Assembly: GCA_002162685.1 (NCBI GenBank)
Contig: MAAQ01000002.1
Location: 186,001 to 250,000 of the forward strand
DNA length: 64,000 nucleotides
Source: Flavobacteriales bacterium 33_180_T64
GTDB taxonomy: Bacteria > Bacteroidota > Bacteroidia > Flavobacteriales > Flavobacteriaceae
Direction of reading: 5' to 3'
Part shown: positions 1 through 14,057 of the stretch, piece after piece
Numbering within the stretch: the stretch's first letter is position 1
Layout: each line of letters begins with the position of its first letter
Position numbers and translations under genes: made by a program
Notes under the pieces: model-generated
The model's database searches: none
What the model was told of the DNA's origin: nothing
The model's input: the letters and a program-made list of their open reading frames with translations, nothing else

Positions 1-3000
1 TTGATATTGCTATTACTAGTGGAGATTTAGTTATTTCTGACGGTACTACAGATGATATTACTGTCGCTGTATATTTAAACACAAGCAATCTTACCGATAA
101 TGCAGTCTTATCATTCTTTGTTGATTCAGATGACAATGGTTTTACAGCAGATGCTGCTGGAAGTGCATTTAACTCAACATTTATATTAGGTGATTTTAAC
201 TCTAATGACTTTACTATTGATGTCGATGCGACTCTAATAGCGTTTAGCCAACAACCACCAGCAATTGTAGATATAAATTCTGCAATGGCTAACGTTATCG
301 TTCAAGCACAAGATGCAAATGGGAATTTAGATACCGATTATAATTTAGACATAGACATGACATCTTCTGGTACTTTATCAGTAAGTCCTATAACAGAAAC
401 ATCTGTATCTGGTACAGCTACGTTTAGTACTATTACGCATACCGCAGTAGGTACTGCTTTAGTATTAACAGCAGATGATAGTGTTTTCTCTACAGTGAAT
501 AGCACCACTTTTGATGTTGCTGTTTTACCAACAACAATTGCGCAACAAGATTTTGATGGCGGATTACCAAATTGGACCTATGCAAACGATGTTACGCTTT
601 TTGATAACACATGGGGAGGCGATGGTTACTATGGTCTTATTGATATCAGTTTGGCAGCACCAATTAACTTAGTAAGTATGTCTGCCAATATTCTTGGTGA
701 AAATGACTTAGATGACGAAGGCGCAAATGGAACTACAGGATTTGCAACAACAACTTTTGGAACCGTAGATGTTAGCCTTTATGAAGATGTTGATTTAACA
801 TTCGATTGGCAGGTAGTAGCCTATAACGCGTTAAGCGATGATGCAAGATACCAAGTCTTTTTTGACGGTGTAGGTCAAGGCATCGTATATTTAGTTGATG
901 GTGGCGGAGGAAACCCAGCTGATGGTAGTGGTACAGTTACTATTGATGTACCAAATGCGATCACTACTGTAAGTCTTGAAATACAAGTAAGAAATAACGG
1001 TTTGAGCGGATACTCTGGTTTTGATAATTTTGGAATTACTGGTTTCCTTCCTTCTGTTGTATATGAAGGAAATGACTCAAATGGTTTTGGTGGCCCTTTA
1101 GGCTTAGGAGACCTTGAAGTTGCAGCCTTTACTGGCACATCAGCCGATTTTACTTTAATAAAAGGTGCTGGTGATTTTAATGATCACATAGTACTTTATA
1201 TTGATAGTGAAGCAGGCGGTATTACAACTACCTCTGGTTTAACAGATACTGCTGATGCAGGTCGTAGAGCTGTTTCAGGATATGATGGCACTAACAGATC
1301 AACAATTAATTTCCCTCCTGGTTTTGGAGCAGATTTTGCAATCGCTTTAGACAATGGCTTTGCTGGATTATTTCAAATTGTTGAAGGTGGCAGTCACGTT
1401 TTCGTAGCAAATTTAGGATTAACACCTACAGGAGCAACACAGCCTACATATGATTTTAGTGCTGATTTTGCAGATATGAATACTACTGCAGGAGCAAGTA
1501 GTTTCAAATTTTTCGCAACCTATTTAAACTCTACAAATGCTTTTAGATCTAATGAATTTATTGGACGAAGTATTTACGATAGTAATGCTACAGCTAATCC
1601 AGGTTACACAACAGTAGACATGCAAACGTATTACCAAGCTTCAAGTCGTAAACAAGGTGGTGAAGCTCCTTCTACAGCTAGTGGATTATGGTCTAATGAT
1701 GCATCATGGACAAATGGAAATGCACCTTTAGTAGGTGATGAAATTACAATCAATAATGATGTAACCCAAGATGTAAACTTTAACACAAATAGTCTGAGTA
1801 TTGCTGGTGCTAATACATTAACAGTAAATGCTGGACAATCTTTACAAATGTCTGGTGGTATTTCTGGAACTGGTAATTTAAGCGTTAGCGGTGAATTGAG
1901 TTTTACTGAGGGTGGATTTACAGACTTAGAACCTGTTTATGCTTCTGGAGCTACATTAGAATATATCAATATTACTGGAACATATGTTCGTTTTAACGAA
2001 TGGAGCAACGGAACGAGTCTTGGTGCAGGAGTTCCAGATAATGTAATTATAGACAATGTCGCTTTAGATTTAACTAATGGAAGTCAACCAGTTTCAGTTG
2101 ATTTTTCTATTGGCTCGGACATTTCAATATTAAATAGTGGAAGCTTAACAATAGATTCAAACGAAAGTTTAACTTTAGGAGGTAATGTTAATATTACTGG
2201 CGCAGACTTATACTTAAACTCTATTGCTACAGAATATTCAAGCCTAATCGTTGGAGGAACTTCAAGTGGAGATGTAACGTATAGACGTCATATCAATACA
2301 CTTTCTGGAACTGGAACTACGACAGGAAATAATGATCTTGTTTCTGCTCCTGTAACTAACGCTAGTCAGATATTCTCTGTATTCAGAACAAACAATGCTA
2401 ACATTCCATCAGGAAATATTAGCGGAACATTATCATATTTATTTGGCCCATTTGACAATGTTACAAATGCTTATACCAACTTTACAGCTGCAAATGATAG
2501 CGACATATTAACTGCAGGAACAGGATATCGTACAGCATCAACAGATACATCTACATTTACATTTATTGGTGATGTCGAAACTGGCACTGTTACTGCTAAT
2601 ATTGCAATTGGAGCAGGTAGTGAATGGAATTTAATTGGTAACCCTTACCCATCGTATATTAATAGCGGTGATTTCTTAACTGAAAATGCTGCATTCTTAG
2701 ATGAAAATGCTATTGGAATATATGGTTATGATGGTTCAGCTGATAATGGATGGACAATCATTAACTTTAACAATGCAAATACAGCAGCAAATATTGCTCC
2801 TGGACAAGGTTTTATGGTTGCAGCTGAAGGCACATCAACATTAAACTTTACACCAGCTATGAGAAATATTTCTGGAACTGATGATTTTATTGTTGGAAGA
2901 GTAGAAAACAATGAGTATTTAAGACTTCAAATTGAAAATGGAGATTCTAATTACCATACCGATTTCTATTTTAACGATAACTCAACTCAAGCTCTAGATC

Positions 3001-3596
3001 CAGGTTATGATGCTGCTCTTTTTAACAGTTTCTTACCTGAATTTTATGTGTATTCTCATTTAGTATCTAACAATACTGGTCGCTCAATGGCAATACAGTC
3101 ATTAAGTTCAACAGATTTAAGTAATGTAACGATTCCTCTAGGTGTTAATGCTGATATGGGAGAGCAAATTACATTTAGTATTGTAGAATCTTCATTACCA
3201 AACACCATAGATGTTTATTTAGATGATACTATTGCAAATACTTCTACATTATTAACTAATGCCGATTATGTTTTTACACCAAATGTTAACTTATCTGGAA
3301 CAGGACGTTTCTTCTTAAGATATACTGAAGATGCATTATCAACATCAGAGAACAGTTTAAACAACTTAGATATTTACGCATCTAAAGAAGCAAAAGAAAT
3401 CGTAATTAACGGTCAACTTTTAGAAAACACTGTTTTAAATTTATATGATATTCAAGGACGTTTGGTTATGACATCTAAACTTGATAACTCGCTTTTAGAA
3501 AATCGTATTGATGTTGCTAACGTAACTTCTGGTATATATATCGTATCACTAGAAAATAATACTCAAAAGAAATCTCAAAAAGTTATTATTGAATAG
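1..3596 (+). CDS. Large T9SS-secreted surface protein, 3' part (5' end outside window)
   Basis: The frame is open from base 3, with no stop before the methionine at 285, so 1197 residues are visible and the true start lies upstream. The product is rich in Ser, Thr, Gly, Asn and Asp with many beta-strand-like repeats, as in exported adhesin or multidomain surface proteins. A middle segment (about base 1670 to 1930) reads GLWSNDASWTNGNAPLVGDE and then short NITINN/LTVNAG-type strands, typical of parallel beta-helix or G8-like regions. The last 75 residues fit a type A T9SS sorting domain: LYDIQGRLV, then NVTSGIYIVSL, then a basic end KKSQKVIIE. The protein is therefore expected to cross the outer membrane by the type IX system and be anchored or released. 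No catalytic motif was recognised. The next gene follows 73 bases later on the same strand. Confidence 0.9.
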   Translation, partial: DIAITSGDLVISDGTTDDITVAVYLNTSNLTDNAVLSFFVDSDDNGFTADAAGSAFNSTFILGDFNSNDFTIDVDATLIAFSQQPPAIVDINSAMANVIVQAQDANGNLDTDYNLDIDMTSSGTLSVSPITETSVSGTATFSTITHTAVGTALVLTADDSVFSTVNSTTFDVAVLPTTIAQQDFDGGLPNWTYANDVTLFDNTWGGDGYYGLIDISLAAPINLVSMSANILGENDLDDEGANGTTGFATTTFGTVDVSLYEDVDLTFDWQVVAYNALSDDARYQVFFDGVGQGIVYLVDGGGGNPADGSGTVTIDVPNAITTVSLEIQVRNNGLSGYSGFDNFGITGFLPSVVYEGNDSNGFGGPLGLGDLEVAAFTGTSADFTLIKGAGDFNDHIVLYIDSEAGGITTTSGLTDTADAGRRAVSGYDGTNRSTINFPPGFGADFAIALDNGFAGLFQIVEGGSHVFVANLGLTPTGATQPTYDFSADFADMNTTAGASSFKFFATYLNSTNAFRSNEFIGRSIYDSNATANPGYTTVDMQTYYQASSRKQGGEAPSTASGLWSNDASWTNGNAPLVGDEITINNDVTQDVNFNTNSLSIAGANTLTVNAGQSLQMSGGISGTGNLSVSGELSFTEGGFTDLEPVYASGATLEYINITGTYVRFNEWSNGTSLGAGVPDNVIIDNVALDLTNGSQPVSVDFSIGSDISILNSGSLTIDSNESLTLGGNVNITGADLYLNSIATEYSSLIVGGTSSGDVTYRRHINTLSGTGTTTGNNDLVSAPVTNASQIFSVFRTNNANIPSGNISGTLSYLFGPFDNVTNAYTNFTAANDSDILTAGTGYRTASTDTSTFTFIGDVETGTVTANIAIGAGSEWNLIGNPYPSYINSGDFLTENAAFLDENAIGIYGYDGSADNGWTIINFNNANTAANIAPGQGFMVAAEGTSTLNFTPAMRNISGTDDFIVGRVENNEYLRLQIENGDSNYHTDFYFNDNSTQALDPGYDAALFNSFLPEFYVYSHLVSNNTGRSMAIQSLSSTDLSNVTIPLGVNADMGEQITFSIVESSLPNTIDVYLDDTIANTSTLLTNADYVFTPNVNLSGTGRFFLRYTEDALSTSENSLNNLDIYASKEAKEIVINGQLLENTVLNLYDIQGRLVMTSKLDNSLLENRIDVANVTSGIYIVSLENNTQKKSQKVIIE

Positions 3597-3669: not shown

Positions 3670-3831
3670 ATGAAAAGAAATACCCCTCAAAACCAAATTA
3701 CACGTAAAGAAGCCATGAAGAAAATGGGTAAGTACGCTGCACTTACTGCTGTAGGTACATTTCTTATCCTAAATCCTAAGAAAGCTCATGCAGCTTCTCC
3801 ACCAGATCCAGGAGGAAATCCTTTTGACTAA
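3670..3831 (+). CDS. 53-residue secreted peptide with Tat-like leader; candidate substrate of the downstream kinase
   Basis: A short frame from ATG at 3670 to TAA at 3829. Residues 11-20 (TRKEAMKKMG) resemble the n-region of a Tat-type signal with an R-K pair. Residues 22-34 are hydrophobic. AHA at 39-41 is a good signal peptidase I site, leaving a 12-residue tail, ASPPDPGGNPFD, with one serine (Ser43). The stop is 8 bases before the start of a PqqD/HPr-kinase fusion, so the genes are probably cotranscribed. PqqD domains are known to bind leader peptides of ribosomally made, modified peptides, and HPr-kinase-like enzymes phosphorylate serine in some lasso-peptide clusters. A precursor role is therefore plausible but inferred. 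The alternative is a conserved exported mini-protein with no modification. Confidence 0.72.
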   Translation: MKRNTPQNQITRKEAMKKMGKYAALTAVGTFLILNPKKAHAASPPDPGGNPFD

Positions 3832-3839
3832 TTTCTAAA

Positions 3840-4979
3840 TTGATTTTGAAAACGGATTTAGCTCCGGATTATAGTCATATCCTAGACGAAACTATAGTAT
3901 TATGGTTTAAAAAGTCTAATAGGTATGTTTTAGTTTCCGAAGACCTTTACACGCTTATTAACTTATTTCTAAATTTAGAAAGCAAGCCTTCTTTTATCAA
4001 TACTATAAAAGAAGCTTTAGGCATTGAAGATCACAAATGCGAAGCAATTTATAATGAGATTTCAAACTTCTTAGAAGATGCCAACACTGTAGTTACAAAA
4101 GACACTACAAAAGTGAGCTTACTTAAAATCCCAATTACAGATATTCAAAAATTATATCGCATTAATGATAAGATTATTAAACTACATTTTGAATCGTCTT
4201 TAATTGAAAGTTTAATTCACCCACAAATTGCTCATCATCAAATAGAAAATACAATACATTGTGATATTGCATTTGATATTTTTAAAACGGATGATGATTT
4301 ACACTTGTTCAAAAACAAGAACCATGTAGGCACCTACAAATCAAAAACGTTTCACCTTTTACAAGGGCGATTTGCATTAGAACTCGCAAATGCAATTCAC
4401 AATACAAAAATAGAAAATTGGATTGCCACATTTCATGCCTCTACTGTAACAAATGAAAAAGAAGCAATTATGATTATTGGTGATTCTGGCAATGGCAAAA
4501 GCACATTATCAACATTACTTATGGCTAGCGGCTTAGATTTGCTTGCAGACGACTTTACTCCGCTATATAACGATTTAAATCTGTACCGCTACCCAGCAGC
4601 TATATCTGTAAAAAAGGGCGCTTTCAAAGTTTTAGAATCTCATATTGATAATTTTGAAACATTAGAAGTTTATGAAAATGGCCCAAAAAAAGTAAATCTA
4701 AAATATGTCCCTCCAGTTTATAGTTCAGAAAATTTAAAACCAGATTTCCCTTGTAAAAAAATTGTATACGTAAAATTTAACCGTGACCAAAAATCTGAAT
4801 TAAAAGAAGTTTCTGCTGAAAAAATACTAGAAACTTTAATTCCAGATTCATGGATATCGCCTAATGAAGACCATGCGCTTCAATTTTTGAATTGGTTAAA
4901 AGACATAAGATGCTATGAGCTTAATTATAGTGACAATGACTTTGCCATTTCAAGATTTAATACACTATTTAATTCATAA
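3840..4979 (+). CDS. PqqD-like domain fused to HPr-kinase-like P-loop kinase
   Basis: 379 residues. Residues 1-85 look like a PqqD-type winged-helix peptide-binding domain (DETIVLWFKKSNRYVLVSED, then helices with LDA/LEDAN-like spacing). Residues 195-380 look like an HprK catalytic fold: FHAS at 198-201, the P-loop GDSGNGKST at 214-222 and LLADDFTPL at 234-242, which corresponds to the DD segment of serine kinases. There is no sugar-phosphotransferase HPr substrate gene nearby. The gene starts 8 bases after the 53-residue peptide and is followed 53 bases later by a nucleotidyltransferase gene. HprK-like kinases paired with PqqD and with this nucleotidyltransferase family are known from lasso-peptide and HPr-rel-A type loci. 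I infer that the enzyme phosphorylates a peptide, most likely the one encoded just upstream; the substrate is not shown by sequence alone. Confidence 0.82.
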   Translation: MILKTDLAPDYSHILDETIVLWFKKSNRYVLVSEDLYTLINLFLNLESKPSFINTIKEALGIEDHKCEAIYNEISNFLEDANTVVTKDTTKVSLLKIPITDIQKLYRINDKIIKLHFESSLIESLIHPQIAHHQIENTIHCDIAFDIFKTDDDLHLFKNKNHVGTYKSKTFHLLQGRFALELANAIHNTKIENWIATFHASTVTNEKEAIMIIGDSGNGKSTLSTLLMASGLDLLADDFTPLYNDLNLYRYPAAISVKKGAFKVLESHIDNFETLEVYENGPKKVNLKYVPPVYSSENLKPDFPCKKIVYVKFNRDQKSELKEVSAEKILETLIPDSWISPNEDHALQFLNWLKDIRCYELNYSDNDFAISRFNTLFNS

Positions 4980-5032
4980 ATCTGAGGATAGCCATTTCTT
5001 TGGTTATTTTTGAACTATAATTCGTCTAAAAT

Positions 5033-6103
5033 TTGTCTTCAGTAAAAAACACATACAAAGATACCTTACTATTGATAGCAGATATCTTGAGTTTTGAAAA
5101 CCCTCACCATGATTTAAAACAAAAAATCGTTTCAACTCAGATAGACTGGGAACAATTTGTAACTGTGGCTAGTGACCACCTCGTCTTAACGACATCTTAC
5201 TGCAGATTAAAAAGTAAAGAATTACTACAATATCTTCCTAAAGATTTAGAAGTTTACCTAAAAGAAATTACTTTAATTAATAGAAACCGAAACCTTACAT
5301 TAATTAAAGATATTAAACTAATTGCAACAATTTTTAACACACATAATATTAACCATGTGTTTTTAAAAGGCTCAGCTTTTCTCATTGGAAACTACTATAA
5401 AGATGTTGGAGAACGCATGATTGGAGATATTGATATCTTGATAGAAGAAAATAAGATTTTAAAAGCTTATGATTTATTATTAAATCAAGGGTACTCAAAA
5501 TTACCATCAGGACTAAAATCTACATTTTTCGACCATAAACATCTTGATAGATTAACTTTAAATGAAGGCTTGTGTGCTATTGAACTTCATAAATATGTAC
5601 TCAACAAACCCTTCGACAAATTACTTTTAAGTTCCGTTATTTTGGATGAAAAGCAATTTATTGATACCATTGCTATTCCTGGTCCTAATCACTTATATAC
5701 GCACAACATACTCAACTTTCAAATTAATGATAAAGCACACTACTATTCTAAAATAAGCATGCGCTCTGTTTATGATACTTTAATTTTATTGAAGGCATTT
5801 CCTAAATTATTAAAAACAAGTCATCACAAATACTTAAACTCTTATCTCTCTCTTCATTCTATTTTTTTAAAAGAGTTCAACACTATTAAACTCGACCTCT
5901 CAAAAATTAAAAGATTTGAAACGCGATTAAAGTCATCAAAACTGAATTCTTTCCATAAGAAAAAATTAGAAATCTATGCTTTATTAAATGTTATCCCATC
6001 TCGGTTAAACCTCTATTTTACAAACAAAAATTATAGATCAGCTATTCATAAAGAGAGGGGTCGAATTTTTAAAGAATTAAAATCGAATTTTTTAAAGAAT
6101 TAA
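5033..6103 (+). CDS. Nucleotidyltransferase family protein (NTP_transf_5 type)
   Basis: 356 residues. HVFLKGSAFL at 108-117 and GDIDILI at 131-137 form the nucleotidyltransferase core, with Asp132 and Asp134 as probable metal ligands. The arrangement fits the uncharacterised nucleotidyltransferase family PF14907. The frame opens after a TAA at 5027-5029 and the only plausible early start is TTG at 5033; the next in-frame ATG lies beyond the conserved N-terminal helices. The C-terminal 130 residues are helical and rich in Lys, Leu and Ser. It is the third gene of the peptide-kinase cassette. In lasso-peptide clusters the same family sits beside HprK-like kinases, so a role in modifying the phosphorylated peptide is plausible. 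The nucleotide and acceptor are unknown. Confidence 0.8.
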   Translation: MSSVKNTYKDTLLLIADILSFENPHHDLKQKIVSTQIDWEQFVTVASDHLVLTTSYCRLKSKELLQYLPKDLEVYLKEITLINRNRNLTLIKDIKLIATIFNTHNINHVFLKGSAFLIGNYYKDVGERMIGDIDILIEENKILKAYDLLLNQGYSKLPSGLKSTFFDHKHLDRLTLNEGLCAIELHKYVLNKPFDKLLLSSVILDEKQFIDTIAIPGPNHLYTHNILNFQINDKAHYYSKISMRSVYDTLILLKAFPKLLKTSHHKYLNSYLSLHSIFLKEFNTIKLDLSKIKRFETRLKSSKLNSFHKKKLEIYALLNVIPSRLNLYFTNKNYRSAIHKERGRIFKELKSNFLKN

Positions 6104-6129
6104 TATAAAATATAAAACTTTAGTCTTTA

Positions 6130-6161
6130 TTTGTTATTTTATTATTCAAAGTATATCTTTG
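6130..6161 (+). promoter_or_regulatory. Bacteroidota-type promoter of the beta-barrel protein gene, with overlapping palindrome
   Basis: TTTG at 6130-6133 and TATCTTTG at 6154-6161 are separated by 20 bases, matching the Bacteroidota consensus TTTG-N19/20-TAnnTTTG. The predicted start of transcription is near 6168, 16 bases before the ATG at 6184. A perfect 7-base inverted repeat, TTCAAAG-TATAT-CTTTGAA (6145-6163), covers the -7 box and could be an operator or just chance. Confidence 0.62.
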
Positions 6162-6183
6162 AATTAACTCAGATACTATAAAC

Positions 6184-6768
6184 ATGAAAAAAACCATTTT
6201 ATTATTAACATTAATTTCGCTTTTAAGTTTTAACAGTTATTCGCAATCGATGACTAAAAAACAATCTAGAGATCATCAATCTTGGTTTCTTAGCGTTGGA
6301 GTTAATGCCGTAGGAAGTTTAGGAACTCAAAATCCAGTAGAAAAATTAGAAGAATTTGAATTTAGCCGTCCTTTTGCAATTGCCATTCAGCACAAATGGA
6401 CAGAACACCTTTCTATTGAACAAGATTTTACCATGAATCAATTTAAGGTTGGTTCTACTATTGACAATGGTGTCGTTACTGAAAAGTTAAATTACTATTC
6501 AACAAACACCTATTTAAAATATTACTTTTCTGATTATTTACTAAAAAATGTAAATTGGCTTGACATGTATGCAGGTGGTGGTTTAGGTGTATTTTCTATA
6601 GATGAATTTAACACCTCTGCAAATCTTGTATTAGGAGGAACAATATGGATAAACCCTAATATTGGTGTACGATTACAAAGTGTTGGTAAATTTGCTTTTA
6701 ATCAAAAAGATAATCGCTATGACAATAATCACTTCCAATATATGCTACAAGCTGTATTCAAGTTGTAA
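6184..6768 (+). CDS. Outer-membrane beta-barrel protein
   Basis: 194 residues beginning with a clear signal peptide (MKKTILLLTLISLLSFNSYS, cleaved near SYS-QS). The rest alternates polar and hydrophobic residues with aromatic girdles (SWFLSVGVNAVGSLG, SIEQDFTMNQFKVGS, YSTNTYLKYYFSDY, LDMYAGGGLGVFSI) and ends in a strand with a C-terminal Leu (HFQYMLQAVFKL). That is the pattern of small 8-stranded outer-membrane barrels of the OMP_b-brl type. It has its own promoter at 6130-6161, so it may not belong to the preceding peptide cassette. Its stop directly abuts the stop of the convergent peptidase gene. No enzyme motif is visible, and a structural or porin-like role is only a family-level guess. 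Confidence 0.8.
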   Translation: MKKTILLLTLISLLSFNSYSQSMTKKQSRDHQSWFLSVGVNAVGSLGTQNPVEKLEEFEFSRPFAIAIQHKWTEHLSIEQDFTMNQFKVGSTIDNGVVTEKLNYYSTNTYLKYYFSDYLLKNVNWLDMYAGGGLGVFSIDEFNTSANLVLGGTIWINPNIGVRLQSVGKFAFNQKDNRYDNNHFQYMLQAVFKL

Positions 6769-7626
6769 TTAATAATTAGCAAAATTAAAATTTAACATTT
6801 CCCTAGTTTTATTATAAATTCTAGGGAATTGTCTTTTAAAGTCATGAGGTGTTTCAATAAAAGTTTCAACAATGACTGCTACAAATTCAAATTGATTGGT
6901 AAACGCATACGCTCTAAAATATTTAGATTCAATTAGTTTTTGCCTCAATTCCTCTTCAGCAGTAAGTAAATCTGTAAGTTCGCCAAAGGCACTTTTAAAT
7001 ATTAAAGAGCTTATATCTCTACTTTTCAAACTATTTATATGAATGGCATGTGTAAACTCATGAATACCTAAGTTCAAATTATCATTTTCATCATCATATC
7101 CAATTAAAAAATCTTCCCAAGAAAGCACTAATACTTTTAGCTTTGGATTTAATTCACCTTTATGTTCAGCATCATTTGATTGAGAATAAAAAGAATTTGG
7201 GTATATTATAATTCTCTCAATTAAATCTATCCTATAGTTTCTAAAACCAAATGTTAGCATTGTTGAAGTTGCAGCAATTAAAACTTTCATTTCATTAGTA
7301 ACTACCAAACCCTCCCTTCCTAAGAAAGACTTTGCATCAATAAATGAGGCAACTCGGTGATTAAATATATCTTTTTGAGTGGTATTTAACCTTTTATAAA
7401 AACTAAACTGATTCCTTAAAATTCGTTTTTCTTTATCTCCTAGCTTTTTTTTATAAAGATAAAAGTGCACAAAGAAAGGCCGCTTATTCTTGATGGCGTA
7501 TTGCTGCTCAAAAAACACATAAAACCGTGATATAACAACAGCTGCTATACCAGTAAAAAAAACGACTAATAATATAATACGAAGTGTGGGCGAGAATTCT
7601 TGTGTTTCAATTAAAGCTAATATCAT
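6769..7626 (-). CDS. MtfA-like zinc-dependent peptidase (M90 family), first paralogue
   Basis: 285 residues. A membrane segment lies at 13-35, followed by a cytosolic-type domain. The HEFTH motif at 189-193 is the HExxH zinc site, and a downstream FEFVAVIVETFIETP segment supplies the likely third ligand, as in MtfA (Peptidase_M90, PF06167). In enterobacteria MtfA binds the repressor Mlc and has aminopeptidase activity; whether that applies here is unknown. A second, better-conserved copy is at 51309-52076. It converges with the beta-barrel gene with no bases between the two stops. Upstream lies the 92-base repeat region, without a recognisable promoter. Confidence 0.85.
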   Translation of the reverse strand: MILALIETQEFSPTLRIILLVVFFTGIAAVVISRFYVFFEQQYAIKNKRPFFVHFYLYKKKLGDKEKRILRNQFSFYKRLNTTQKDIFNHRVASFIDAKSFLGREGLVVTNEMKVLIAATSTMLTFGFRNYRIDLIERIIIYPNSFYSQSNDAEHKGELNPKLKVLVLSWEDFLIGYDDENDNLNLGIHEFTHAIHINSLKSRDISSLIFKSAFGELTDLLTAEEELRQKLIESKYFRAYAFTNQFEFVAVIVETFIETPHDFKRQFPRIYNKTREMLNFNFANY

Positions 7627-7720
7627 TTTTTAAAAATACTAAAAAAGAAAATCCTAAATGTCAATTAATAAACTTAATCACACTCTCAATTTCTGTCTGT
7701 AGAAACAAAAACACTATAAT

Positions 7721-7948
7721 TATAAATTCAAGCAAGCTTCATCTAAATCTCTTTGATTGACGACCTTGTCGTCTTCCTCAATGCTCCGCCTTGAAAATAG
7801 AAAATCTCTGCTTATAAATTCAAGCAAGCTTGATTTAAATCTCTTTGATTGACGACCTTGTCGTCTTCCTCAATGCTCCGCCTTGAAAATAGAAAATCTC
7901 TGCTTATAAATTCAAGCAAGCTTGATTTAACACAGAGATTTTCTATTT
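7721..7948. repeat. 92-base tandem repeat (2.3 copies) ending in an inverted copy of its own edge
   Basis: Copy 1 is 7721-7812, copy 2 is 7813-7904 and a partial copy 3 is 7905-7930. The full copies differ by only a few bases near the start of the unit. Each full copy contains GACGA-CCTTG-TCGTC. Copies 2 and 3 also contain TCAAGC-AA-GCTTGA. After the partial copy, 7933-7948 is a perfect 16-base reverse complement of 7887-7902, so the right end can fold back on itself. On the minus strand each full unit reads as a short open tail ending DEACLNL or NQACLNL before a stop, suggesting a decayed and duplicated 3' coding end. It fills most of the 7627-7953 gap beside tRNA-Arg; I see no intact gene there. 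Confidence 0.85.
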
Positions 7949-7953
7949 ATTCG

Positions 7954-8027
7954 TGACCTCGAGAGGATTCGAACCTCCAACCCTCAGAGCCGAAATCTGA
8001 TATTCTATCCAGTTGAACTACGAGGCC
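7954..8027 (-). tRNA. tRNA-Arg, anticodon TCG
   Basis: Read on the minus strand, 74 bases fold as a cloverleaf. The acceptor stem is GGCCTCG against CGAGGTC with discriminator A. The anticodon stem TCAGA/TCTGA encloses the loop TTTCGGC with anticodon TCG. The T arm contains GGTTCGAATCC. The CCA end is not encoded. It lies just downstream of yqeY on the same strand, 15 bases from its stop, and next to the repeat region, whose fold-back end could act as a transcript end. Confidence 0.95.
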
Positions 8028-8042
8028 ATTAATTTCAGTAAT

Positions 8043-8492
8043 TTATAACAATTTTGCTTTTACAATTGTAGAAATAGTTTTTCCATCAGCTTGACCTGCT
8101 AATTCTTTATTAACGATTCCCATAACTTTTCCCATATCTTTCATTCCTTCAGCACCAATACTCTCAATAGTCATTACAACTACTTTTTCTATCTCTTCTT
8201 CAGTTAATGCTTCTGGTAAAAACTGACTAATGACCTCAGCTTGATCTATTTCTGGTAATGCTAAATCTTTTCTATCTTGTTCTAAATATATTGCAGCACT
8301 ATCTTTACGTTGTTTTACTAACTTTTGAAGTATTTTAAGCTCTTCTTCTTCCGTTAATTCTTCTCCACCACCAGTAGATGTCCTAGCTAATAATATAGCA
8401 GATTTCACCGCTCTAAGTGCTTCTAAAGCTATTTGATCTTTTCCTTTCATTGCTGCTTTCATTGCAGTCATTACATCATTTTGTAAACTCAT
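8043..8492 (-). CDS. GatB/YqeY domain-containing protein
   Basis: 149 residues, the full length of the YqeY family. It starts with MSLQNDVMTAMKAAMKGKDQ, has the family segment ALRAVKSAILLA near residues 24-35, a conserved QRKDSAAIYLEQDRKDLA helix, and ends in the tail-domain pattern GMKDMGKVMGIVNKEL. YqeY resembles the C-terminal tRNA-binding part of the GatB amidotransferase subunit; its own function is not well established. It lies between ftsZ and tRNA-Arg on the same strand but is separated from ftsZ by a strong terminator, so it probably has its own promoter. I found no exact consensus for one in 8493-8570. Confidence 0.92.
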   Translation of the reverse strand: MSLQNDVMTAMKAAMKGKDQIALEALRAVKSAILLARTSTGGGEELTEEEELKILQKLVKQRKDSAAIYLEQDRKDLALPEIDQAEVISQFLPEALTEEEIEKVVVMTIESIGAEGMKDMGKVMGIVNKELAGQADGKTISTIVKAKLL

Positions 8493-8570
8493 AATATGTG
8501 AATTAATTTAAAACACGAAGATATGAAAAAAGTCAGTGTTTTTATAGAAGAATGTAGCATTGCATTAGTC

Positions 8571-8610
8571 TATAAAAAACCCGAAAAGTCTATCTCAACT
8601 TTTCGGGTTT
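8571..8610 (-). terminator. Rho-independent terminator after ftsZ
   Basis: AAACCCGAAAAGT (8577-8589) and ACTTTTCGGGTTT (8598-8610) form a perfect 13-base stem with an 8-base loop. On the minus strand the stem is followed by a T-rich run (TTTTTTATAG counting the stem end). It lies 34 bases after the ftsZ stop and ends the division and cell-wall gene cluster. Confidence 0.9.
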
Positions 8611-8643
8611 AACAAAGTGTGAAACACTAAACTAAATTTGCTA

Positions 8644-10584
8644 TTAATCTACGTTGTCGTGTAAAAATGAATTATTACTTCTTAATTGAATATCATCGTT
8701 GTCATCTGTAGTCACCGATGTTCTAGAAGCGTTGGTTTCTGATGAATGCTGTGCATCCTCTAAATTCACACCTTGCCTTTTGTATGCAGGTTCTTTTTCA
8801 ATTTCATCTATTTTAGCTGTATTGAATTTGTAATTGAAATCTTTCATCTTGCGACGTCTCTCATCTGCTCTTTCTTTTAGCAATTCTGAAATAGGACTAT
8901 TCATTGGATCAATATCCTCTCCAACTTCACTTTCGCTTACTTCAGATTCAATAATTTTTTTCTCAAATACAATTTCCTCTTCAACCTCTGGTTGCACTTT
9001 TACCTTGGCCCCTTTATCATTCATAGCAGATTCATAAGTCATAAAATCATCTAAAGCATAACGTTTTTCACCTTCTTCATTAGCTTCAGTTACAGGAACA
9101 ACCTCAATATGCTCATTAACTTCCATATCCTTCACCTCTTCATCTAAAGCAAAAATTGTTTTCTCTTCTGTGATATCTTCTACAACCTCTTCTTCTGAAG
9201 CACCAAAAGATAATGGCAAGTCAAAAGTTAATGTGATTTGCTCTTCTTCAATATCTTCTACAACGGCTTCCTTTACTTCTTGAACTGGAGTAATAATGAA
9301 ATCATCTTCTACAAGCTTATGATCTAAAACCTCATCATAAACGACATTAATATTTTTTATTATATCTGTCGTTGCTATTAAATTAGTTTCTAAATTATCT
9401 GTAACTTCATTAATGTCATCTTCATCAGCCATCAATGTATGAACAACAACTTCTGGTGTATTATCTTCTTCTATTTCAAGAATAATGTCTGGTGTGATAA
9501 TGGCAGGATCACTCTCTTTTACATATACATCATCATTTCTATCATCTTCTAAAGCATGAACGACTTTCTTCTGTTCAGTATTAGAAATTTCATACTGTTG
9601 ATCTATATCAAAACCTGTCGCAATGATCGTTACAGAAATAGATTCTTGTAAGGATTCGTCTTCACCAACACCCATAATAATGTTAGCACCATGACCCGCT
9701 TCTGTTTGGATATGATCATTAATTTCTCCTATTTCATCAATAGTTATTTCTTGAGAACCTGAAACGATAAGCAACAGTACGTTTTTAGCTCCTGTAATTT
9801 TATTATCATTTAGTAATGGAGAATCTAAAGCACTCATAATCGCTTCTTGTGCTCTGGTTTTCCCAGAAGCTGTAGAAGACCCCATAATTGCTGTTCCACT
9901 ATTACTTAATACGGTTTTTGCATCACGTAAATCAATATTTTGTGTGTAATGGTGTGTAATTACTTCTGCTATTCCTCTTGAAGCCGTAGACAAGACCTCG
10001 TCTGCTTTTGAGAAACCAGCTTTAAAACCTAAATTACCATAAACTTCACGTAGTTTATTATTATTAATAACCACTAAAGAATCGACATGTGCACGAAGGG
10101 TTTCAACACCTACTTGAGCCTGTTCATTTCTTGTTTTACCTTCAAATTGAAAAGGCATTGTCACAATACCAACAGTTAAAATATCTAATTCTTTGGCAAG
10201 TTTCGCTATAACTGGGGCAGCACCTGTTCCTGTTCCTCCACCCATTCCTGCTGTGATAAATACCATTTTAGTATTGGTATCTAACATACGACGCAAATCT
10301 TCTAAACTTTCTACAGCTGCCTGTTCTCCTACTTCTGGGTTTGCGCCTGCACCTAAACCTTCAGTTAAATTAACTCCTAATTGGATTTTGTTCGGGACAC
10401 CACTGTTTTGTAGTGCTTGGGCATCAGTGTTACATATTACGAAATCAACACCTTTAATCCCTTGTAAAAACATGTGATTAATTGCGTTACTTCCTCCTCC
10501 ACCAACTCCAATCACCTTAATGACGTTTGATTGGTTTTTTGGTAAATCAAATGCAATGTTGCCTAACTCATTGTTGTTGCTCAT
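8644..10584 (-). CDS. ftsZ: Cell division protein FtsZ
   Basis: 646 residues. The tubulin-like GTPase core covers about 15-335, with GVGGGGSNAI at 26-35 and the tubulin signature GGGTGTG at 115-121. It polymerises with GTP into the division ring. The remaining 310 residues are a long, acidic, low-complexity linker rich in Glu, Val and Asp, ending in a short conserved tail (IQLRSNNSFLHDNVD) that is the likely FtsA-binding peptide. This extension is usual for Bacteroidota FtsZ, which is much longer than the roughly 380 residues of E. coli, so I do not regard it as a fusion. It is the last gene of the cluster, 82 bases after ftsA, and is followed by a strong terminator. Confidence 0.98.
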   Translation of the reverse strand: MSNNNELGNIAFDLPKNQSNVIKVIGVGGGGSNAINHMFLQGIKGVDFVICNTDAQALQNSGVPNKIQLGVNLTEGLGAGANPEVGEQAAVESLEDLRRMLDTNTKMVFITAGMGGGTGTGAAPVIAKLAKELDILTVGIVTMPFQFEGKTRNEQAQVGVETLRAHVDSLVVINNNKLREVYGNLGFKAGFSKADEVLSTASRGIAEVITHHYTQNIDLRDAKTVLSNSGTAIMGSSTASGKTRAQEAIMSALDSPLLNDNKITGAKNVLLLIVSGSQEITIDEIGEINDHIQTEAGHGANIIMGVGEDESLQESISVTIIATGFDIDQQYEISNTEQKKVVHALEDDRNDDVYVKESDPAIITPDIILEIEEDNTPEVVVHTLMADEDDINEVTDNLETNLIATTDIIKNINVVYDEVLDHKLVEDDFIITPVQEVKEAVVEDIEEEQITLTFDLPLSFGASEEEVVEDITEEKTIFALDEEVKDMEVNEHIEVVPVTEANEEGEKRYALDDFMTYESAMNDKGAKVKVQPEVEEEIVFEKKIIESEVSESEVGEDIDPMNSPISELLKERADERRRKMKDFNYKFNTAKIDEIEKEPAYKRQGVNLEDAQHSSETNASRTSVTTDDNDDIQLRSNNSFLHDNVD

Positions 10585-10625
10585 AAAATTTCTTTTACTC
10601 TATTTATACTCTTATTTCCCCAAAT

Positions 10626-10654
10626 ATTTTCGACAGTCCTACCCAATCGAAAAT
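10626..10654 (-). promoter_or_regulatory. Stem-loop in the ftsA-ftsZ gap
   Basis: ATTTTCGA (10626-10633) and TCGAAAAT (10647-10654) are perfect 8-base arms around a 13-base loop. There is no T-run after the stem on the minus strand, so it is a poor terminator. It could be an mRNA processing or stability element that raises ftsZ output relative to ftsA. Next to it, minus-strand AATATTTG differs from the TAnnTTTG -7 box at one base, so a weak ftsZ promoter here is also possible. Confidence 0.3.
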
Positions 10655-10666
10655 GTATGAAATTAT

Positions 10667-11992
10667 TTATTCTGCGTTATCTAAAAAATCTTTAACGCGT
10701 TCTGTTAACTTATCTAAAAAGGATTTACGGTCCTTTTTTGGTTGCTGAATTATATCTTCTTCATGCGATACATTTTCTTCAGAATTTGTTTCAACCATTT
10801 GTTCAACTTCTTTCTCTGCACATTTTCGTTCTTGACGTTTTAATCCGTCCATTACTAAACCAACAGCTGTTGCAAACAAAGGGCTAGCAATATCGTCATC
10901 ACTATCTCCTGCTAAGTGTTCGTTTGGATATCCAATTCTAGTATCCATTCCTGTAATATATTCAACTAACTGTTTTAAATGTTTTAATTGGCTTCCACCT
11001 CCTGTTAACACGATACCTGCAATCAATTTCTTCTTTTGCTCTTCGTGACCATAATTTTTAATCTCGACATATACTTGTTCTACAATTTCGACTACGCGTG
11101 CATGAATAATCTTAGATAGATTTTTGAGTGTTATCTCTTTAGGTTCACGACCACGCAATCCAGGAATAGAAACAATCTCATTATCTTTATTTTCTCCTGG
11201 CCAAGCAGAACCAAATTTTATTTTAAGCAACTCTGCTTGTTTTTCAATAATAGAGCAGCCTTCTTTAATATCTTCAGTTACTACATTTCCTCCAAAAGGA
11301 ATTACAGCAGTATGACGAATAATTCCATCTTTAAAAACCGCTAAATCTGTAGTTCCTCCACCAATATCAATCAATGCAACTCCTGCTTCTTTTTCTTCTT
11401 GACTTAACACTGCATTTGCAGATGCTAAAGGCTCTAAGGTTATCCCTTCTAATTCTAAACCAGAACTCTTCACACAACGACCAATATTTCTAATCGAAGA
11501 TACTTGACCTACAACAACATGAAAATTAGCTTCAAGTCGTCCTCCATACATTCCAATAGGCTCTTTAATTTCTGCTTGGCCATCAATTTTATACTCTTGA
11601 GGTAACACATGAATAATTTCTTCCCCAGGAAGCATTACTAATTTATGTACTTGATTGATTAAAAGATCTATATCCTCTTCATCAATAACCACTTCCGAAT
11701 TAGCTCTAGTGATATAGTCACTATGCTGCAAACTTCTAATATGCTGTCCAGCAATACCAACAGTTACGTCTTCAATTTTCAATCCAGCCTCAGCTTCAGC
11801 TTCTTGAACTGCTTGTTGAATAGACTGAATTGTTTGCGTAATATTATTAACAACACCTCTATGTACTCCTAAACTTTTGGATTTTCCAATTCCTAAAATT
11901 TCGGCCTTGCCATATTCATTCTTTCTACCAATCATTGCCACAATCTTTGTGGTTCCAATATCGAGTCCTACTGAAATTTTATTATTTTCCAT
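10667..11992 (-). CDS. ftsA: Cell division protein FtsA
   Basis: 441 residues of the actin/Hsp70 ATPase fold. VGLDIGTTKIVAMIG at 8-22 is the phosphate-1 motif, ALIDIGGGTTDLAVF at 206-220 is phosphate-2, and GIVLTGGGSQL near 330 is the adenosine motif. The SHS2 (1C) subdomain occupies roughly 85-165. The C-terminus SFLDKLTERVKDFLDNAE is an amphipathic helix of the kind that tethers FtsA to the inner membrane. FtsA anchors FtsZ filaments and recruits later division proteins. It starts 3 bases after ftsQ ends and is followed by an 82-base gap with a stem-loop before ftsZ. Confidence 0.97.
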   Translation of the reverse strand: MENNKISVGLDIGTTKIVAMIGRKNEYGKAEILGIGKSKSLGVHRGVVNNITQTIQSIQQAVQEAEAEAGLKIEDVTVGIAGQHIRSLQHSDYITRANSEVVIDEEDIDLLINQVHKLVMLPGEEIIHVLPQEYKIDGQAEIKEPIGMYGGRLEANFHVVVGQVSSIRNIGRCVKSSGLELEGITLEPLASANAVLSQEEKEAGVALIDIGGGTTDLAVFKDGIIRHTAVIPFGGNVVTEDIKEGCSIIEKQAELLKIKFGSAWPGENKDNEIVSIPGLRGREPKEITLKNLSKIIHARVVEIVEQVYVEIKNYGHEEQKKKLIAGIVLTGGGSQLKHLKQLVEYITGMDTRIGYPNEHLAGDSDDDIASPLFATAVGLVMDGLKRQERKCAEKEVEQMVETNSEENVSHEEDIIQQPKKDRKSFLDKLTERVKDFLDNAE

Positions 11993-11995
11993 TAC

Positions 11996-12715
11996 TTACT
12001 TTTTGGTGCAAATCACTTGCTTATCAAATTTTAAATTAACTAGCTTATAATTATCTAGTATTTTATCTTCTAGTGCTTTCTTGTAGAAAGCTTTCAAATT
12101 ATTTATTTTTTTATCTAATAATTTTAATGTCCCTAAATGGATCTTAAAATCATGAGATCTAAATTTTAAATCGATAGTTTTATTCTGGTTTTGATGAATC
12201 TCAACAACATGTTTCATCAAAAATTCATCATCTCGAATTTTTTTAGCAATAGCATACACATTTGCTAAATCATTCTTCTCAATATAACCAGTAACAAGTG
12301 GCACACGTGCAGTATAATTTGTTGATAAAGGCATAAACGAGCCAGTCTCATCAACGTAATAAGATGCATTTGTGCTTACTCTTGCAATAGGTTTTTTCTG
12401 TTCAATTTCAGCAGTGATTAAGCCATCAACACTCATAAACACTTGTGCTTGCTTAATCATTGGATTAGAGTTTAGGGCAGATTCTAATTCATTCAAATCT
12501 ATAATATCTTTAGGCTTATTTGTAACACTCTCTTGATTTTGTATTAACAATTTACTAACAGTCTCATGTGTAACGAAAAGATTGTCATCTCCAACAAATT
12601 TTATATTTGGAGAATCAACTCTTCTAGCCGAATTTCTAACTGATGAAAACGCATACAAAAAAACGACTAAAACTAGCAGCAATACAACTTTTATGTAGCT
12701 ATAATTAACTCGCAA
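11996..12715 (-). CDS. ftsQ: Cell division protein FtsQ
   Basis: 239 residues with one N-terminal membrane segment (about 8-24, VVLLLVLVVFLYAF) and a periplasmic domain. A POTRA-like part follows (NIKFVGDDNLFVTHETV), then a beta domain (KPIARVSTNASYYVDETG). Sequence similarity to E. coli FtsQ is low, as is normal in Bacteroidota, so the call rests on topology, size and position between murC and ftsA. FtsQ links the cytoplasmic ring to FtsB/FtsL and the septal synthase. Its start overlaps the end of murC by 11 bases, suggesting translational coupling. Confidence 0.9.
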   Translation of the reverse strand: MRVNYSYIKVVLLLVLVVFLYAFSSVRNSARRVDSPNIKFVGDDNLFVTHETVSKLLIQNQESVTNKPKDIIDLNELESALNSNPMIKQAQVFMSVDGLITAEIEQKKPIARVSTNASYYVDETGSFMPLSTNYTARVPLVTGYIEKNDLANVYAIAKKIRDDEFLMKHVVEIHQNQNKTIDLKFRSHDFKIHLGTLKLLDKKINNLKAFYKKALEDKILDNYKLVNLKFDKQVICTKK

Positions 12716-14057
12716 TACTCAATGCTTTTTTAATGTGTTTAACTTCTTCTCCAATATCTCCAGCTCCAATAGTTAAAATTACTGATGCATTTGATAAACT
12801 TATCGTTTGAATCAATTCTGACTTTTGAACTAATTGCTTATTATCATTTCTAATTTTATCTAATAACCATTGTGAGTTGACCCCTTCAATTGGTAATTCT
12901 CTGGCAGGATAGATATCTAATAAAATCACCTCATCAAACTTTGATAAGCTATCTGCAAATTCATTAGCAAAATCTTTTGTTCTACTAAATAGATGTGGTT
13001 GAAAAATAGCCAGTACTTTTTTATCTGGATACATTTCTCTCACTGCTTGATGGACAGCCTTAATTTCTTCCGGATGATGAGCATAATCGTCTATATACAC
13101 TAAGTCATCAGTTTTAATCTGGTAGGTAAAACGTCTTTTCACACCTTTATATGATGCTAAAGCTTTGGCGAGCTGCGGTTGAGGGAGACCGTATTCAACA
13201 GACATCGCCAAGGCTATTAATGCATTCGACAGATTATGTCTACCAGGTAGGTTAAATTTGAAATTTTCTAGTAGCGCATTTGGTGTTTTCACATCAAACA
13301 CATAACTACCATTTATTATTTTTATATTTTTTACTGAATAATCTGAATCATCTTCAATACCATAGGAAATACCCTTAATTGGTAATCCGTTTTTTACGAA
13401 CAGTTTTCCGTTAGGTTTTATTTTTTCAGAAAAATCTACAAAAGACTTTTCTAATTCGGAAGCATCACCATAGATATCTAAGTGATCTGCATCCATTGAT
13501 GTAATGCAAGCAAAATCTGGTGACAAGGCTAAAAATGAACGATCAAATTCATCTGCTTCTACAACAGTTACATCTGTTCCCTTTAAGATGAGATTAGAAT
13601 TATAATTTTCACTAATTCCACCCAAAAAAGCTGTAACGGCTACATTACATTCATTTAACAAATGACCTAAAATACTTGTTGTTGTTGTTTTTCCATGGGT
13701 TCCAGCAACAGCCAGACAAAATGTTTGTTTAGTAATTTCACCTAAGACTTGCGAGCGTTTCATAACCTGAAAACCGTTAGAATTAAAATAATTAAACTCT
13801 TTATGTGTATTTGGAATTGCAGGCGTATATACAATAAGAGTTGTTTCTACATTTAAAAAACGATTATCAATGTGCTTAATACCATCTTCAAAATGAATCA
13901 AAACACCTAGATCTTCTAAGGCATTTGTAATATCTGTTTTTGTTTTATCATATCCACCTACATTTAATCCTTTGGCCACAAAATAGCGAGCCAAAGCACT
14001 CATACCAATGCCTCCAATACCTATAAAATAAACGTTATTTGCTTGTTTTAAATTCAT
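12705..14057 (-). CDS. murC: UDP-N-acetylmuramate--L-alanine ligase
   Basis: 450 residues, typical for Mur[15 protein letters not shown] at 10-23 is the UDP-MurNAc-binding Rossmann motif, [10 protein letters not shown] at 118-127 is the ATP P-loop, and DDYAHHPEE is the Mur-ligase C-domain motif. The enzyme adds L-alanine to UDP-MurNAc, the first peptide step of peptidoglycan precursor synthesis in the cytoplasm. It overlaps murG by 4 bases (ATGA type) and ftsQ by 11 bases. Confidence 0.97.

Follow-up and report, generated by a model that had tools for sequence, protein, structure and literature searches.

A compact candidate gene set for a leader-guided modified peptide associated with type IX-secreted surface proteins in Flavobacteriaceae

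The stretch of DNA under study, a window of 64,000 nucleotides from Flavobacteriales bacterium 33_180_T64 (genome G000 in our numbering; G000:C9:186001-250000), carries a gene for a 53-residue peptide followed by genes for a kinase and a nucleotidyltransferase. Comparison with related genomes reveals a conserved peptide family with a near-invariant serine, conserved catalytic residues in the enzymes, a recurring gene order, and the co-occurrence of the peptide, the kinase and a module of a surface protein secreted by the type IX secretion system (T9SS). The tightest partner of the peptide is this T9SS-secreted protein, encoded upstream, not the kinase; that the peptide belongs with one class of T9SS surface proteins is the best-supported addition to a first-pass annotation of the locus. 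With moderate confidence, we propose that the window holds a compact tailoring and export set of the kind known for ribosomally synthesized and post-translationally modified peptides (RiPPs), in which a leader-guided phosphopeptide or phosphoglycopeptide would be exported to work with T9SS surface proteins. It would be an apparently undescribed way of making a modified peptide for such proteins.

The features of the locus are given below in window positions. For the three genes of the cassette, our reading of frames and starts agreed with that of the first-pass annotation.

1..3596, forward strand: large T9SS-secreted surface protein, whose 5' end precedes the window (open frame of 1516 amino acids in the whole genome)
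~2115-3593, forward strand: system-specific module of the T9SS protein (G000:C9:188115-189593; module match 595 bits)
~3414-3590, forward strand: Por_Secre_tail sorting domain of the T9SS protein (G000:C9:189414-189590; PF18962, 37.7 bits, cut-off 27)
3670..3831, forward strand: precursor-like peptide of 53 amino acids, ATG start; conserved family under purifying selection
3796..3798, forward strand: codon of Ser43, the near-invariant serine (47 of 48 and 83 of 83 copies) and proposed modification site
3840..4979, forward strand: HprK-related kinase, TTG start; His199, Lys220, Asp237 and Asp238 invariant in 34 aligned kinases
~3870-4082, forward strand: N-terminal domain of the kinase (residues 11-81), with the order of elements of a RiPP recognition element (RRE) or PqqD in the predicted model
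5033..6103, forward strand: NTP_transf_5 (PF14907) nucleotidyltransferase, TTG start; PF14907 match, conserved Asp132, Asp134 and Glu184
6184..6768, forward strand: small protein resembling outer-membrane beta-barrels, as a rule encoded last in the set (OMP_b-brl 18.7 bits, under the cut-off of 28.7)

The peptide of the window, MKRNTPQNQITRKEAMKKMGKYAALTAVGTFLILNPKKAHAASPPDPGGNPFD, begins with a signal-peptide-like leader (residues 1-41) ending in AHA, and continues with A-Ser43-PPDPGGNPFD. Its frame is coding, as indicated by the 21 synonymous and 2 non-synonymous differences that separate it from its relative L197. Strong purifying selection is apparent in the family at large: among 39 copies of exactly 53 codons, pN was lower than pS in 698 of 741 pairs. 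Two overlapping sets of copies, with some genomes in both, were used. The first comprises 48 aligned copies; L140, which consists of two frames of one disrupted copy, was dropped, and the disrupted copies of G151, G295 and G197-C15 lie outside the alignment. The second, obtained with the peptide alone as query, comprises 83 copies in 78 loci, the best of 422 matching stretches and hence the closest relatives. A further alignment, A5, contains 40 peptides picked from the set, some of them trimmed. The window's own genome has a single copy. The proposal that the 53-codon frame represents a conserved family beside the kinase is borne out, since both the family and the adjacency are seen in relatives.

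The consensus of the leader is I-[TS]-R-K-E-A-[IL]-x-K-M-G-K-Y-A-A-L-T-A-x-G-T-F-x-I-L-N-P-K-K-A-Q-A; any residue and then a serine follow, and a short tail rich in proline and glycine, mostly with a phenylalanine or tryptophan near its end. The serine is kept in 47 of the 48 copies of the first set and in all 83 of the second, where 82 were scored by pattern and one (L212) by eye. In the copy that lacks it, from G283, a genome without a kinase match, a tyrosine takes its place. Column entropy over the 48 copies is 0.15 bit for the serine, 2.39 bits for the residue before it and 1.05 bits for the one after. Moreover, the leader proline and the serine are 7 residues apart in 83 of 83 copies (again 82 by pattern, L212 by eye). 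The likely cleavage motif A-x-A, in contrast, is not universal, and Winogradskyella copies have AQS, AQT or AQV; a fixed cleavage site was therefore rejected. As the likely cleavage motif varies while the spacing of the serine stays constant, the position of the serine appears to be set relative to the leader, as leader-guided modification before cleavage would predict. A short precursor, a conserved leader and associated modifying enzymes, as expected of RiPPs, are all found here.

At the second position of the motif expected for twin-arginine translocation, 44 of the 48 copies have K, 3 have N and 1 has T, and a strict twin-arginine signal is thus unsupported in flavobacteria. Part of the family has a leader of the form IGxYGKY, with a three-residue insertion (for example L112, L117-L120, L125 and the second copy of L129). 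G255 possesses one peptide copy of each leader form, and one kinase.

A T9SS partner was called if a match to the T9SS-tail or module profile lay on the same strand, at most 1 kb upstream of the peptide. By this rule, 79 of the 83 peptides of the second set have an upstream T9SS gene, 76 of them with a module above 200 bits; the four misses are L212 (T9SS gene 2.6 kb away), L216, L239 (second peptide of a pair) and L252 (contig end). A kinase match lies within 400 bp downstream for 66 of the 83, and 14 of the remaining 17 still have the T9SS gene upstream. The first set, counted by eye, gives a similar picture. A T9SS gene, or its tail-bearing fragment, precedes 40 of 45 assessable peptides (not counting three contig ends and the two frames of L140; the fragments at L114 and L142 are short), the misses being the second peptide of L097, L104, L127, L136 and L141. 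It also precedes 14 of 16 copies away from a kinase, among them all six of G320. The first-pass annotation had not noted this main partner of the peptide, which is usual upstream even where the kinase lies elsewhere. The gene order is completed downstream: the nucleotidyltransferase is present in 64 of 65 kinase-bearing loci of the second set, and both it and the barrel gene in 63 of 65; of the 64 loci with both enzymes, 63 have a relative of the barrel gene.

What distinguishes the T9SS partner from other cargo is a module of about 430 residues, common to the T9SS partners, that precedes the sorting tail. The tail itself is that of type A cargo, with PF18962 over its cut-off in 8 of 10 other partners scanned, and Por_Secre_tail exceeds the cut-off 85 times in the window's genome, which amounts to a few per cent of all genes if about 3,300 are assumed; most of these other cargoes are without the module, which is tied to the peptide system. 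A profile of the module (A6, built from 32 of 37 modules) exceeded 200 bits in all of 20 system-bearing genomes and in none of 20 system-free ones (maximum 168). In a further set, it did so in none of 27 peptide-free genomes (maximum 180), six from outside the order and eight with a weak HprK-like match; a module above 200 bits is thus absent from all 47 system-free genomes of both sets. It was found above this score in G048, G480, G475, G586, G275 and G283, and the modules of G480 and G475 score high though these genomes belong to other families and stand outside the profile; in G480, the module match and the peptide match lie 36 bases apart. System-free genomes widely carry more distant relatives of the module, with lower scores.

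The question arises as to how peptide and cargo are related. The peptide may act free, as a secreted phosphopeptide or phosphoglycopeptide, be it a signal, an antimicrobial or a metallophore; its link with the T9SS gene would then reflect no more than joint expression at the surface or in surface growth. Its architecture of leader and tail, as in RiPP precursors, and the lasso type of the tailoring enzymes speak for this, yet we consider it rather unlikely: the tail is fairly conserved at its P, G and F/W positions, not hypervariable as expected of peptides in an arms race; no peptide exporter or immunity family was recognized by eye among the recurring neighbours, where a flippase-like gene occurs in 4 of 55 and 8 of 78 loci; and the pairing with one T9SS module is tight, unlinked copies included. 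Alternatively, the peptide may be a covalent attachment or anchor unit, joined to the C-terminus of the mature cargo when the sorting domain is cleaved, and replacing or adding to the lipopolysaccharide anchor. In favour of such a role are the T9SS sorting tail of the cargo, the adjacency of the peptide and cargo genes, and genes resembling those of sugar-nucleotide enzymes near some loci. However, it is the module that tracks the system, and not the generic sorting tail found on about 85 proteins of the genome; we consider this scenario improbable.

The neighbouring genes just mentioned, which we take to be sugar-nucleotide epimerases or dehydratases, are found in 11 of 55 loci (L146 being without a peptide) and 28 of 78. 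Together with the flippase-like gene, which resembles polysaccharide flippases, they could supply or move a sugar, or they could be ordinary neighbours.

Among 397 Flavobacteriaceae genomes scanned with a peptide profile (A1) and a kinase profile (A2), 43 contained the peptide at E<=0.01, 40 of them strongly (G152, G355 and G372 lie at 0.004-0.01), and 37 the kinase, 36 of them strongly (G246 is marginal). Counting strong matches, 35 genomes have both, 5 only the peptide, 1 only the kinase and 356 neither. The kinase without a peptide is that of G048, whose match starts at base 30 of its contig. The five genomes with a peptide but no kinase match are G136, G275, G283, G295 and G315, and three of them carry an altered or broken copy, with stops in G295, a frameshift in G315, and the tyrosine in G283. 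No ATG, GTG or TTG precedes the leader of the G283 copy; as the same holds for one of the two copies of G275, the missing start is not special to G283. Over a wider sample (246 genomes of the order, 277 of the phylum), the peptide is found mainly in Flavobacteriaceae, with additional cases in G475 and G480, from other families of the order, and a marginal one in G564. All four strong kinases of the phylum sample, the window's genome included, come with a peptide, while six weak HprK-like matches come without.

This co-occurrence bears on two further scenarios. The kinase and nucleotidyltransferase may act on another substrate, such as a polysaccharide or an HPr-like protein, the peptide being a mere small membrane or secreted protein of the same operon. 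HprK_rel_A-type kinases are known outside RiPPs, exopolysaccharide or sugar-nucleotide-like genes lie near some copies, and a Streptomyces plasmid (L281) has a PF14907-like gene without such a kinase in the 10 kb read. We nevertheless tend to dismiss this scenario, as the peptide accompanies the kinase in 35 of 36 genomes, keeps its serine and the spacing, is altered or broken in three of the five kinase-less genomes, and has a counterpart beside alphaproteobacterial pairs of the two enzymes (see below). A small hydrophobic peptide beside an NTP_transf enzyme also resembles some toxin-antitoxin layouts, and the locus could be a defence unit in which a hydrophobic toxin is neutralized by a modifying enzyme. 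Intact peptides are, however, dispersed without an adjacent kinase, and the link to T9SS cargo also speaks against such a unit; we hold it to be very improbable. PADLOC gave no match at E 0.01 for the three proteins, and a defence system was rejected.

G320 and G586, of the same genus, have six peptides each; all six of G320 follow a T9SS gene, and its single kinase is located elsewhere. In Lutibacter agarilyticus (L264, 1347-10072), three peptides, one full kinase with kinase fragments, and two module-bearing T9SS genes make up a duplicated, partly decayed version of the set.

We now turn to the enzymes. The P-loop GDSGNGKST noted at first pass is present in the kinase frame. Resemblance to HprK is weak (Hpr_kinase_C, 19.6 bits for a cut-off of 33.3). 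The NCBIfam model HprK_rel_A (TIGR04352) matches the kinase with an E value of 5.5e-18 and 65.1 bits, the curated cut-off being 200, so that the kinase is not a member by that model; the same model matches all 34 kinases and is the most widely matched NCBIfam model among them (best E 1.4e-23). His199, Lys220, Asp237 and Asp238 are invariant in 34 of 34 aligned kinases (alignment A3, from which L107, with its split kinase, was omitted), and this H-K-D-D set aligns with the solved HprK structures 1ko7 and 3tqf. The same four residues were shown to be essential in lasso kinases, according to a review (PMC9266682).

In the predicted model of the kinase (mean predicted local distance difference test score, pLDDT, 93.2), residues 11-81 fold into three strands and three helices (E11-15, E18-23, E28-33, H34-45, H49-60, H64-81; block pLDDT 93-96). 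Three strands followed by three helices is the order of an RRE, as described in PMC12710340, and this match suggests that the N-terminus of the kinase is an RRE-like domain.

The third gene was taken at first pass for an NTP_transf_5 nucleotidyltransferase, and rightly so: its product scores 103.5 bits with PF14907 (cut-off 31.2). PF14907 matches all 30 aligned nucleotidyltransferases at E 0.001, with Asp132, Asp134 and Glu184 invariant. A search for solved relatives returned only one unrelated match (E 0.32).

Both enzymes have lasso-type relatives. A plasmid search with the nucleotidyltransferase led to a lasso-type cluster of Paenibacillus cellulosilyticus (L275 5956-10892, NZ_CP054613.1) with a PF14907 nucleotidyltransferase, an Asn-synthase cyclase, a short precursor ending in Ser, an HprK-like kinase and a PqqD. 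The window kinase aligns with that of the cluster at an hhalign probability of 97.2 (E 3.4e-11), the nucleotidyltransferase at 98.4, in keeping with the earlier idea that the two are akin to lasso-peptide enzymes. This cluster carries no annotation in its database record.

In the lasso peptide pseudomycoidin, according to two reviews (PMC9266682, PMC8498205), PsmK phosphorylates a serine and PsmN adds one or two hexoses; one of the reviews leaves undecided whether, once nucleotidylation has taken place, the sugar is attached by an enzyme of the host. Pseudomycoidin and paeninodin (PadeK) resemble the window set in having an HprK-related H-K-D-D kinase and a nucleotidyltransferase beside a short leader peptide, with one conserved serine as the proposed target. 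They differ in that the serine of the window set directly follows the leader and is not C-terminal, that the leader resembles a secretion signal, and that a T9SS cargo and a barrel protein belong to the set. No lasso cyclase, leader protease, lasso ABC exporter or radical-SAM enzyme was recognized by eye among the recurring neighbour families, whose members were not annotated singly. The Bradymonas lasso system (BsfA/BsfK/BsfB1) is alike in its serine near the start of the core, its leader dependence and a nucleotidyltransferase gene (bsfN) in the cluster; BsfK phosphorylates Ser3 of the core, and an RRE protein strongly enhances the reaction (PMC10368454). There the RRE is a separate protein, and a cyclase and a protease are present, whereas here an RRE-like domain is predicted to be fused to the kinase and no cyclase was recognized. 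RiPP precursors of the DUF2282 family, likened by description only (PMC12710340), similarly combine a precursor bearing a Sec signal peptide with an RRE protein; their other partner proteins differ.

No paper combining the elements of the set (an HPr-type kinase or precursor peptide with type IX secretion, the leader motif, PF14907) was found in a collection of open-access papers, most subscription journals being outside this scope. The main text of a study of RiPP mining in Bacteroidales (PMC10352776), as far as it was available, does not mention HPr, nucleotidyltransferase or type IX, and no kinase terms were found in PMC7470986.

We envisage the following pathway. The RRE-like domain of the kinase would bind the conserved leader, and the kinase would then phosphorylate the near-invariant serine at its fixed spacing from the leader; this is the strongest step, and a probable one, with Ser43 the likely target in the window. 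By analogy with pseudomycoidin, the PF14907 enzyme may then extend the phosphoserine, most likely with a sugar or a nucleotide, a step we hold with moderate assurance. The leader would double as an export signal, cut near A-x-A, and a modified peptide of about 10-15 residues would be released outside the inner membrane. There, with a chance we judge about even, the product would bind or be joined to the module that precedes the sorting domain of one class of T9SS cargo, and the small barrel protein would assist at the outer membrane. If so, kinases and nucleotidyltransferases of lasso type act outside lasso peptides, on peptides that leave by an ordinary secretion signal, and type IX secretion gains an unsuspected peptide partner in marine genera such as Psychroserpens and Winogradskyella. 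Ser43 and the module provide an exact residue and an exact partner module open to testing.

Several observations weigh against this proposal. Phosphorylation, nucleotidylation and glycosylation of the peptide are inferred modifications. The PqqD identity of the N-terminal domain is unconvincing by sequence: PF05402 is over its cut-off in none of 20 genomes and does not appear among the Pfam families listed for the 34 kinases (25 of 69 displayed), hhalign to a true PqqD gives a probability of 0.4, and 27 of 2000 shuffles score as high as the real pair. Of the PqqD-like/HPr-kinase-like fusion described at first pass, then, there remain the element order of an RRE and the weak HprK resemblance, the RRE claim resting on the predicted fold, while the PqqD part goes unseen by sequence models. 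The module profile was built from neighbours of the peptide, which makes its 20 of 20 partly circular; in G295 the module is not matched at all, and in G315 only a piece of it is. Modules also outnumber peptides, as in G000, with three high-scoring modules and one peptide, which suggests that one peptide may serve several cargoes. In G275 (82% complete), an intact peptide (L137) follows a T9SS gene although no kinase is matched, and G136 (84% complete) has an intact peptide with neither kinase nor module match, preceded by a FolD-like gene in place of a T9SS gene. Conversely, G151 has the kinase, but a stop interrupts its sole peptide frame where the leader ends, and G040 combines an intact peptide with a kinase divided between two frames of one contig. 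Finally, the genomes are related, and tests of chance are descriptive only.

A similar arrangement exists in some Alphaproteobacteria. Five plasmid loci with a kinase/PF14907 pair were read, of 23 such records. Four contain a small intact frame with RR-x2-[IL]-x3-G-[KR]-F-A and A-[IV]-A-[KA]-Ser, the leaders of all four having RR, and two of these frames are annotated genes; in the fifth (L279), the frame starts alike and then breaks, and the kinase frame is short. The frames were picked by a leader-like pattern, which also returned unrelated frames. The four peptides score 6.8-18.7 bits with the flavobacterial profile, and none of 1000 shuffles of each reaches its score, also when the hydrophobic pattern is kept, though L277 and L280 exceed the shuffles by little, and selecting the frames by a pattern makes a match more likely. 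Only the leader is covered by the match; the A-x-A-x-Ser portion was compared by eye. In a plasmid of Leisingera aquaemixtae (L277 1-5948), the serine peptide, kinase and nucleotidyltransferase adjoin a giant Ig-like protein gene on the other strand, a possible parallel to the T9SS cargo link, and polysaccharide export genes.

Since some Alphaproteobacteria have this arrangement, the set appears not to be confined to Flavobacteriia, to which the first-pass annotation had assigned it. We tentatively suggest a class spanning two phyla, of secreted leader-guided phosphoglycopeptides with neither ring nor lasso, that work specifically with large surface proteins. In Flavobacteriales, such peptides would equip the T9SS cargo module, with one kinase for several peptides and cargoes; in Alphaproteobacteria they would be marked by R-[RK]-x2-[IL]-x3-G-[KR]-[FY]-A in the leader, and by A-x-A-x-Ser, beside the enzyme pairs.

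Similar peptides occur without a kinase match within the 12 kb read in L282 and L283. Matches to the alphaproteobacterial peptide are found on 79 plasmid records, 64 of them from Sinorhizobium. On a Sinorhizobium meliloti plasmid (L282, ~5959-6261), genes for UDP-galactopyranose mutase and glycosyltransferases are found close to the peptide, and the stretch read contains no match of the kinase or PF14907 type. The PF14907-like gene of the Streptomyces anulatus plasmid mentioned above (L281, 4872-6104) indicates, as no such kinase lies in the 10 kb read, that nucleotidyltransferases of this type also occur on their own.

Eight bases separate the peptide gene from the first TTG (3840) of the kinase frame; a second TTG, at 3846, agrees with the starts of near relatives. 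TTG is the first start codon in 60 of 65 related kinase frames above 300 amino acids, by a mechanical count. Both enzymes of the window start with TTG (3840, 5033) and the peptide with ATG, and enzyme levels are possibly held below that of the peptide. Downstream, on the other strand (6769-14057), lie genes that we take to be zinc-peptidase-like, YqeY-like, FtsZ, FtsA, FtsQ-like and MurC-like, a neighbourhood common to many related loci.

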